Of a stretch of DNA of 64,000 nucleotides, positions 57,684-61,223 are shown one piece after another (position 1 is the stretch's first letter; every line of letters begins with the position of its first letter). Source of the stretch: Cyclobacteriaceae bacterium. GTDB lineage: Bacteria > Bacteroidota > Bacteroidia > Cytophagales > Cyclobacteriaceae. The notes under the pieces were generated by a model. The model did no database searches. It was given only the letters and a program-made list of their open reading frames with translations, and was not told the DNA's origin. The position numbers and the translations under genes are program-made. The DNA is taken from positions 1-64,000 of the forward strand of contig CANGYY010000006.1 in the NCBI GenBank assembly GCA_947458585.1. Reading direction: 5' to 3'.

Positions 57684-58850
57684 ATGAGCAACAAAAAATT
57701 AATTCGTGTAGGCCTCATCGGCACAGGGCTGATGGGTAGAATTCACACCAATGGCTACAAGCGCTTGGCAGACTTTTTTCCAGAATACGAATACCGCCCT
57801 GTATTGCAAGCCTGCTGCTCCCGAAGAGAAGCCAATGCCAAAGCTTTTATGGAGCGCTGGGATTATGCTTCCTACGAAACAGACTGGCGCAAGCTACTCG
57901 CACGGGAGGATATTGACGCAGTGGATATCTGTACGCCAAACGACATGCACGCAGAAATTGCCATTGCTGCAGCGAAGGCTGGCAAAATGATCCTCTGTGA
58001 GAAGCCCCTTGCCCGAACTGTTGCCGAAGCCAAAGGCATGCTGGAGGCAGTGGAAAAAGCAGGTGTGAAAAACACAGTCTGGTACAATTACCGCCGAGTA
58101 CCGGCAGTGACCCTAGCCAAAAACATTGTTGCTTCTGGGAAGCTGGGCAAAATTTTCCATTACCGAGCCAACTTCCTTCAAGATTGGACCATCAACCCGG
58201 ACTTGCCACAAGGTGGAGATGGAACCTGGAGACTGGATGTAGAATCAGCGGGCTCCGGAGTAACGGGCGATTTGCTGGCGCACTGCATCGATACGGCCAT
58301 GTGGATCAATGGAGGAATCAAGGATGTTTCCGCCATGACCGAGACCTTTGTAAAGGAACGTGTGCATTCGGACACGGGCAAAAAGCAGGCAGTAGGAATC
58401 GACGACGCCTGTATTTTTCATTGCCACTTTGACAATGGTTCCCTTGGCCTTTTTGAAGCCACGCGCTATGCGCGTGGGCACAAGGCCTTATACACCCTCG
58501 AGATCAATGGGGAGCATGCCTCCATCCGTTGGGATTTACATGATTTGACCCGTTTGGAATATTTTGACCACAGCGACGAAGGCAAGGTGCGCGGCTGGCG
58601 ATCCATTCACGTAACAGATGGAGATCACCCTTACATGCACCGCTGGTGGATTCCGGGAACTTCCATTGGCTACGAGCACTCCTTTATCCACCAAGTGGCT
58701 GATTTCTTCCACAGTTTGGAAACTGGTGAATCTTGTCACCCTACCTTCCGCGATGCTTTTGAAACGCAGAAAGTGTGTGAGGCAGTACTCGACTCAGCAC
58801 GCGATCGTGCTTGGAAAGACACCGGGGTGGAGTGGGTAGAGAAGGTGTGA
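57684..58850 (+). CDS. Gfo/Idh/MocA family oxidoreductase
   Basis: [62 protein letters not shown]. Confidence 0.95.
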
Positions 58851-59001
58851 ATGGAATAGTATAATAAAGGGAAGTAGTAAGTACTCTAGATACAAGATGC
58901 AAGAAACAAGAGATTAGACTCAGTTCTGTTGATATAAAAATTCTGCCTAAGGAGCAGGATTCAATTCATCTTGCTTCTTGTGTCTCAGCTCTTGCTTCTC
59001 C

Positions 59002-59081
59002 CTAATGTCGAACGCTGAACGCCCAGTGCAGAATGTCGAATTGGGGAAACTAGTTTCTAGTGTCATTAGGCATCCTAGTCT
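59002..59081 (+). repeat. Repeat unit A (80 bp)
   Basis: ctaatgtcgaacgctgaacgcccagtgcagaatgtcgaattggggaaactagtttctagtgtcattaggcatcctagtct. Confidence 0.95.
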
Positions 59082-59144
59082 CGTTTCTTGCTTCTCGGCT
59101 CTTGCTTCTAGAAACATCTTGATACTAGTTACTTGCTACTTTTT

Positions 59145-59223
59145 CTAATGTCGAACGCTGAACGCCCAGTGCAGAATGTCGAATTGGGGAAACTAGTTTC
59201 AGTGTCATTAGGCATCCTAGTCT
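59145..59223 (+). repeat. Repeat unit B (79 bp), identical to unit A except for one single-base indel
   Basis: ctaatgtcgaacgctgaacgcccagtgcagaatgtcgaattggggaaactagtttcagtgtcattaggcatcctagtct. Confidence 0.95.
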
Positions 59224-59307
59224 TGTTTCTTGCCTGCCTGTCGGCAGATAGGTATCTCGTTTCTTGCCTCTCGAAGCGTCTTGATACTTGATACTTGCTA
59301 CTATTAT

Positions 59308-59868
59308 CTAAACCAAAACCACCCTTAAACTCTTTGCTCCCTGCGCTCCAATAACCAAAGACTGCTCAATGTCTGCGGTTTTGGAGGGGCCAGCAAGAAA
59401 TAGTCCAAACCCGGATTGGGCTGCTGCTATTTTATCATACCCTTGATGCATGGTGTCTTCAAGTCGGTTGCGATCGAGAACAATCACCAAATGCTCTGTT
59501 GCAAAGGGGAGTGCACGAAGTCCAAGCTGGGTGTCCTCAAGCCAAATGGCACCGTTTTCTGCTACCCCAAATTGCCCGTCTAGGATCGCCACTTCCAAGG
59601 TCTCCAAGGCATGCGGATCCTCCGGCAAAGAAAGGGTTGCCAGCTCGGAGAACTGGGGGGAAAGGGAAATCACTTTTGAAAAGCCAGAAGTTGATAACCA
59701 CTCTTCGAACTCGCTTTTGGATAGTACTTCGCCCTTATTGCAGGAGATGGACTGCGTAAATCGTTCCTCCAAGTTTCCTGGGTTGGAGAAATGAGGAATA
59801 TCGGGCAGCGCTTTGGGTTCGAGGGTTAGGCTCCGAATCGCGCTTAAGATTTTTTCTCTGCTGCTCAT
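59308..59868 (-). CDS. lutC: LUD domain protein LutC
   Basis: Last gene of a lutABC order; VAILDGQFGVAENGAIWLEDTQLGLRALPFATEHLVIVL; start chosen at MSSREK, 4-bp overlap with lutB. Confidence 0.9.
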   Translation of the reverse strand: MSSREKILSAIRSLTLEPKALPDIPHFSNPGNLEERFTQSISCNKGEVLSKSEFEEWLSTSGFSKVISLSPQFSELATLSLPEDPHALETLEVAILDGQFGVAENGAIWLEDTQLGLRALPFATEHLVIVLDRNRLEDTMHQGYDKIAAAQSGFGLFLAGPSKTADIEQSLVIGAQGAKSLRVVLV

Positions 59869-61223
59869 GACCTGTTTTTTCGATACCACTGTTGAAAAGA
59901 TTCCTTAGGAGGGTCTGGGAGGTTTCTATTTTTCCCCCAGATATTCAAAGGATGATAAATTAGGCTATTCGGAAGGGATTTTAGCGCATTCCGCATCAGG
60001 CTTCCAGAAATTTTGTAGGCTAGAGGACTCTTGAATATTCCGTTTGCCAACTTCATGGATAGCCCTTTGGCGAATTCGCCCTGCGTTTTGGTGACCTCCT
60101 GCCTCCATTCGTACAGTTGCTCGTGAATGTTGATTTTCACTGGGCATACATCCGTGCAACTTCCGCAAAGTGTGGAGGCAAAGGGAAGGCTGCTGTGCTT
60201 CTTCAAATCTAGCCCTGGAGATAATATGGACCCAATCGGTCCTGGAACAGTGCTGTTGTAACTGAATCCCCCACTTCTGCGGTAGATGGGACAGGTGTTC
60301 ATGCAAGCCCCACAGCGGATGCATTTGAGGGAGTTTCTAAATTTCTCTCGTGCCAGTTGAGCCGTACGGCCGTTGTCTACGAGGATGATGTGAATTTCTT
60401 TTTCGGGCGATGGACTTCTGAAATGAGAGTTGTAGTTGGTGATGGGCTGCCCGGTGGCCGATCTAGCCAGCAAGCGAAGAAATACCCCCAGGTCTTTCCG
60501 TCTGGGGAGGATTTTTTCGATGCCCATACAAGCTATGTGTACTTTGGCCAGGTGAACACCCATGTCGGCGTTGCCCTCGTTGGTGCACACGACAAATTCC
60601 CCCGTCTCCGCAATTCCAAAGTTGACCCCAGTGATGGCTACCTTGGCGGCAAAGAATTTTTCCCGCAGGTGAACTCGTGCGGCCTGCGTGAGGTAGGCAG
60701 GATCTTCATTGCCTTTTTCGGTGTGGAGCTTCTCGTGAAAAAGTTCGGAAATCTCTCCTTTTTTCAAGTGAATAGCAGGCAAGACAATATGACTTGGGGG
60801 CTGGTTGAGAAACTGGACGATGCGCTCCCCTAGGTCTGTGTCTACCACTTCGACGCCGTGCTTTTCCAAGTAGGGATTGAGGTGGCACTCCTCCGTGAGG
60901 ATGGACTTACTTTTGACTACGGCAGTGCAGTTTTGCTGTTGGAGGATTTCCAGTACCAGCCGGTTGTGTGCTTCACTGTCTGCTGCCCAATGGACAATGA
61001 TTCCATTTTTTGTGGCATTGCGCTCAAATTCTTCCAAGTAGTCGGCAAGATTTGCAAGGACATTATCCTTGATGCCAGAGGCCAAGTCCCGTAATTGCTC
61101 CCATTCGGGGATGCCTTTGCTGACTTTGTCTCGCTTATCGCGAACAAACCAGAGCGTTTCATCATGCCATTTTGCTTTTTGGCTATCCTTCAAAAATTCA
61201 GTTGCATTCTCCGGATGTGTCAT
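59865..61223 (-). CDS. lutB: Lactate utilization iron-sulfur protein LutB
   Basis: ITGVNFGIAETGEFVVCTNEGNADM, CIRCGACMNTCPIYRRSGG, CGSCTDVCPVKINIHEQLYEWR. Confidence 0.96.
   Translation of the reverse strand: MTHPENATEFLKDSQKAKWHDETLWFVRDKRDKVSKGIPEWEQLRDLASGIKDNVLANLADYLEEFERNATKNGIIVHWAADSEAHNRLVLEILQQQNCTAVVKSKSILTEECHLNPYLEKHGVEVVDTDLGERIVQFLNQPPSHIVLPAIHLKKGEISELFHEKLHTEKGNEDPAYLTQAARVHLREKFFAAKVAITGVNFGIAETGEFVVCTNEGNADMGVHLAKVHIACMGIEKILPRRKDLGVFLRLLARSATGQPITNYNSHFRSPSPEKEIHIILVDNGRTAQLAREKFRNSLKCIRCGACMNTCPIYRRSGGFSYNSTVPGPIGSILSPGLDLKKHSSLPFASTLCGSCTDVCPVKINIHEQLYEWRQEVTKTQGEFAKGLSMKLANGIFKSPLAYKISGSLMRNALKSLPNSLIYHPLNIWGKNRNLPDPPKESFQQWYRKNRS

Follow-up and report, generated by a model that had tools for sequence, protein, structure and literature searches.

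The window, the whole stretch of 64,000 nucleotides analysed here from a Cyclobacteriaceae bacterium, carries a non-coding block of repeats at 58882-59303 between two convergent operons. The last gene of the left operon encodes a Gfo/Idh/MocA-family oxidoreductase (57684..58850, plus strand; PF01408, PF22725, PF02894), and the last gene of the right operon encodes a LUD-domain (LutC-like) protein (59308..59889, minus strand; PF02589), the two genes ending at 58850 and 59308, respectively. Gene calls were simple (ORF and codon score), with exact stop codons and approximate start codons. The flanking ORFs and their domain matches confirmed the convergent setting proposed in an earlier, sequence-only reading of the locus.

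The block is organized in a register of 7 bp, with a lag-7 self-match of 0.443 (shuffles 0.258, sd 0.022). The heptads are degenerate and fall into several themes rather than repeating a single heptamer almost perfectly: theme I (CTTGATA, CTTGCTA; theme I' is its reverse complement), theme II (TCTTGCT, TCTCGGC) and theme III (GTCGAAC, GCTGAAC), with further themes at other sites, for instance, TTTCGTA and ACTTGGT. The left edge at 58882..58911 (plus strand) consists of theme I'/II' heptads (..AGATACA AGATGCA AGAAACA AGAG) reading inward from the stop codon, which are 79-100% complementary to heptads on the right side (three inverted pairs, I1-I3). It is followed at 58912..59001 (plus strand) by the core1 module (GATTAGACTCAGTTCTGTTGATATAAAAATTCTGCCTAAGGAGCAGGATTC..) with right-hand theme-II heptads (CTTGCTTCTTGTGTCTCAGCTCTTGCTTCT), and then by two units in tandem. 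Unit A (59002..59144, plus strand) is composed of a theme-III heptad head (CTAATGTCGAACGCTGAACG..), the alpha core, theme-II heptads, AGAAACAT, theme-I heptads and TTTTT; unit B (59145..59303, plus strand) has the same layout with a 20-bp insert inside.

Self-comparison of the window detected identity of 59002-59057 and 59145-59200 over 56 bp at a spacing of 143, and a second stretch (59059-59091 and 59201-59233, 33 bp) matching at 97% at a spacing of 142. The A and B heads are 97.8% identical over 89 bp (2 differences in 89), far beyond chance. The match described by the sequence-only reading between 59002-59081 and 59145-59223, with one single-base indel, was borne out, and one C/T difference was found in addition. 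The ~80-bp unit of that reading is real and recurs at the 143-bp spacing, but its frame was too small: the look-alike parts are the heads of a full unit of ~143 bp within the period-7 block. The tails of A and B are only ~77% identical (~12 differences in 52), while the tail of B differs from the orthologous unit of the relative G021 at 2 of ~52 positions. The orthologue of unit A is present in another relative, G085, with heads 98.9% identical.

Dispersal and turnover of the arrays

In the 0.86 Mb of the source genome covered by the period statistics, we counted 23 arrays of period 7 and 0-9 for each other period, and in 0.4 Mb of the relative G022, 79 period-7 arrays, where no period outside the multiples of 7 exceeded 9. 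The arrays are almost all intergenic in both sampled genomes, and 35 of 43 steps from theme I' to theme II' are in phase. In the complete genome of G022 (L118-L127), heptad arrays are very numerous; they lie in long intergenic regions and include the extra themes GGTGTCC, GAAGACC, GGAAGTG and GTTAAAG.

The search of the host genome and its relatives proposed by the sequence-only reading found dispersed copies, and the unit is not confined to this locus: the A and B block has 26 matches in the source genome, the head has nine strong ones, and the head is present in 14 of the 76 genomes of the genus, all of them small drafts of 2.2-2.8 Mb. The wider block has matches in 22 of 24 same-genus relatives and in 0 of 14 genomes of other families. 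When 84,980 species genomes were scanned for the exact pattern, all 17 stretches found lay in MAGs carrying the labels Algoriphagus, Cyclobacteriaceae, Bacteroidetes or Spirosoma fluviale; this last name is probably wrong for several of these MAGs. The repeat is a recurring intergenic feature of a freshwater Algoriphagus-like lineage. Heptad arrays of the same themes are present between genes in other genera of the family and are family-wide. A phage or plasmid origin of the unit was rejected, as none of 50,697 phage and 72,556 plasmid records matched. In another family of the phylum, pattern counts gave CTTGATA/CTTGCTA heptads in 98 places in G439 and 11 in G358; the reversed control pattern also matches a few other genomes, and heptad arrays of several sequences seem to be present in the phylum.

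The same intergenic sites differ between relatives. At the site of the block in the window, the relatives G085 and G014 carry core1 with a single unit and share the left junction of A; G082 and G012 have other modules followed by a unit with the left junction of B; G021 and G007 have one B-like unit; and G008 has theme-V modules only. At the ffh-clpC site, each array-bearing species has a different mosaic, starting 0-4 bp past the ffh stop codon, and G078, G002 and G006 have short regions without arrays. The core1 region (58899-58975) recurs at 84-99% identity in the orthologous site of two relatives, in the ffh-clpC site of other species and in two further sites, and core1 is found at four unrelated sites. 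The different mosaics at orthologous sites, together with core1 at unrelated ones, show that modules are copied from one site to another and overwritten. A module family whose arms have an 11-bp period alternates with heptad modules at two further sites. This second intergenic family (L204, L205, L207, L210, L211) has its arms (GTAGAAATACA..) around GAGCAAGCTC, and the same site carries heptad modules in other species. A hairpin and T-run were observed 3' of ffh in G002 and G006 and are unseen where arrays sit (L247, L248 vs L244), as if the arrays had replaced the terminator. Empty sites had also been suggested as a check; array-free orthologous sites do exist, but their edges cannot be defined, and neither a precise empty site nor a target duplication was recognised for the units.

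The arrays have a polarity. Where gene pairs of the genus run in tandem, all 16 arrays carry theme I' on the sense strand, and the six arrays sampled from other genera all carry it on the opposite strand. Of 21 arrays in the genus, 20 put theme I' ahead of theme II', but the count outside the genus is 4 to 5. In the source genome, theme I' is found at a median of 16 bp from the stop codon. Theme I' thus appears to be directed inward, away from the closest gene boundary, whichever side the array occupies. A simple purine/pyrimidine gradient was rejected as the form of this boundary rule (the gradient is present but modest, and is absent in divergent pairs of G022).

Origin and maintenance of the arrays

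We consider it probable that the block is non-coding, selfish-like composite repeat DNA in a 7-bp register, expanded by slippage and spread by recombination, and not an autonomous mobile element. Short intergenic heptad arrays would grow and shrink in steps of 7 by replication slippage, and array blocks, including the ~80-bp head, would be copied between sites by recombination among arrays with shared sequence (ectopic gene conversion and unequal crossover), and intergenic regions would be overwritten and re-mosaicked in the process. The heads of A and B may have been homogenised or re-duplicated within the locus, the tail of B retaining older orthologous sequence. We infer slippage and gene conversion as the motors, and likewise the absence of a cellular function.

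The close heads, the diverged tails and the match of the B tail to its orthologue point to patchy gene conversion or unequal crossover. The sequence-only reading had offered recent duplication or gene conversion, and local duplication with homogenisation is in agreement with the A/B pattern. No conversion tract was caught with both donor and recipient. At six head sites B equals A against G021, and all six are private changes of G021, G007 agreeing with both A and B; the Fisher test on the A/B/G021 sites was discounted for this reason, and the argument for head conversion draws on the contrast between head and tail divergence. If one 143-bp unit had simply been duplicated in tandem recently in this lineage, the constant spacing and the 98% identity of the heads would be explained, but this is unlikely, with tails that differ by ~23% and a B tail closer to the G021 orthologue; the left junction of B in G082 and G012, and that of A in G085 and G014, make both positions look older than the lineage. 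The A/B mosaic agrees better with conversion or unequal crossover between the two positions than with a single fresh duplication.

We also regard as quite unlikely a non-autonomous MITE-like element, in which the heptad arms would serve as imperfect terminal inverted repeats flanking a short core, with the unit moved by a transposase encoded elsewhere. Such an element would be in line with compact modules with inverted heptad arms at unrelated sites, with the order I'-II'-core-II-I, which resembles nested ends, with nested modules (G013 at the L007 site) and with Y1-type transposase genes in the source genome, but the copies lack constant termini, no target duplication or precise empty site was recognised for the units, and arms of the same locus resemble each other no more closely than those of different loci (permutation p = 0.36). 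CTAATG and CATTAG are present at the positions given by the sequence-only reading; as conserved ends of an element they were rejected. TAATG..CATTA is kept in most alpha-type copies, but the source-genome copies C63, C3 and C69 are without it, and a 6-bp inverted pair at least 40 bp apart occurs by chance in 11.7% of unit shuffles. Three Y1_Tnp (TnpA_REP-like) genes were detected in the source genome, so that candidates for the TnpA_REP-type helper suggested earlier do exist, but the unit is absent from the 450 bp read on either side of each. A Y1_Tnp gene at L260 has several different palindromes around it, for instance, CCCGCCACGGCGGG and CCTGCCGCGGCAGG.

The REP-like palindrome CCTGCCTGTCGGCAGATAGG (59233..59252, no strand assigned) is the 20-bp insert of unit B and is absent at the orthologous site of G021 (TTTCTTG|TATCTCG). 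Inserts of the form CCTGCC..GGCAGG (19-20 bp) interrupt arrays precisely at this position and elsewhere (e.g., L007 ~1430-1450, L226, L253), and their empty sites are seen in the window against G021, in L007 against G082 and in G082 against L003. Insertion strictly after CTTG was rejected, since 6 of 16 units show it and the others do not. In B, the palindrome is a separate insertion, distinct from the unit. A dispersed repeat family, as the sequence-only reading had considered, was supported; neither fixed ends nor a REP-like hairpin of the unit was.

A functional 3' element, either transcribed repeats past the stop codons that terminate transcripts or make them more stable, or a terminator acting in both directions between the convergent operons, is rather improbable in our assessment. 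The arrays often start near a stop codon (the 16-bp median in the source genome, 0-4 bp at ffh), and the whole region folds well (z -4.43), in agreement with the inverted heptads on both sides; source-genome arrays average z -3.3 vs -0.9 for controls, and the ffh hairpin and T-run of G002 and G006 are unseen at array-bearing sites. However, the arrays of G022 average only z -1.2, a canonical terminator precedes the array at the L007 site, and arrays in other genera abut start codons. The unit alone folds no better than shuffles (z -0.29 to -1.02), covariation among copies was not convincing (a two-sided change was seen at one of eight pairs, and there in a single sequence), and Rfam gave no match to the unit near the gathering score. 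A conserved RNA hairpin for the unit was rejected on these three grounds, and the fold and covariation results likewise spoke against a REP-like hairpin. Hairpin-driven co-evolution of the two arms of a locus was also rejected (permutation p = 0.36, the orthologous copies making the test conservative).

The order and orientation of the themes are non-random, and plain slippage does not predict such polarity. Upkeep of family-wide, boundary-oriented, ordered, degenerate heptad arrays in one register could need a dedicated activity, either a protein binding every 7 bp or templated heptad addition, and not slippage alone; we hold this to be improbable. An assembly artefact as the source of the second copy, a worry of the sequence-only reading, is very improbable: although the draft of the source genome is fragmented, at 113 contigs and 82.6% completeness, A and B differ by an indel, a substitution, ~23% of the tail, the 20-bp insert and their flanks, and tandem heads are found in other independently assembled MAGs (156 bp apart in L295 and 190 bp apart in L296).

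Significance of the heptad arrays in this lineage

Closely related genomes show the same intergenic sites in many states, from which the individual events of array growth, copying and loss can be reconstructed; this lineage makes the puzzle of a kept register and boundary orientation testable. Caution is needed with intergenic motifs in these genomes, which may be repeat vocabulary and not promoters or terminators.

Comparison with known repeat systems

Heterocystous cyanobacteria have heptameric intergenic repeats, the STRR. Arrays of the heptamer TAACTGA are described in PMC4679880 for Beggiatoaceae, Cyanobacteria and some Bacteroidetes, and for heptanucleotide repeats in general the same source cites Mrazek et al. 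2007, who proposed slippage aided by a 7-nt polymerase contact; LTRR repeats of heterocystous cyanobacteria are cited in PMC2408588. The arrays studied here resemble the heptameric intergenic repeats of PMC4679880 in the 7-bp unit with periodicity above chance, the mostly intergenic location, often beside gene boundaries, the patchy spread and the lack of a known mechanism. In contrast to TAACTGA arrays, they have no near-perfect single heptamer: the heptads differ in sequence, are degenerate and form several related themes in one ordered register, and non-repeated cores of 40-50 bp are interspersed. With REP/REPIN and their RAYT transposases (PMC3733652) they share the character of short dispersed extragenic repeats, and REP-like palindromes and Y1-type genes are present, but the unit is ~80-143 bp long, not a palindrome of 20-40 bp, has no conserved hairpin (z -0.29 to -1.02) and does not flank the three Y1_Tnp genes within 450 bp.

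The unit showed neither the constant terminal inverted repeats of MITEs nor the family match or covarying pairs of a structured RNA element. BOX elements of Streptococcus pneumoniae are modular intergenic units with a variable internal repeat number. The likeness to BOX is in this modular build; unlike BOX, the repeats described here have no fixed outer modules and no conserved stem-loop, their modules vary between orthologous sites, and the sequences are unrelated as far as known. No description of this ordered, degenerate, composite heptad system was found in the literature searched. We file the system as a degenerate, composite form of heptameric intergenic repeats, with ordered themes and interspersed cores.
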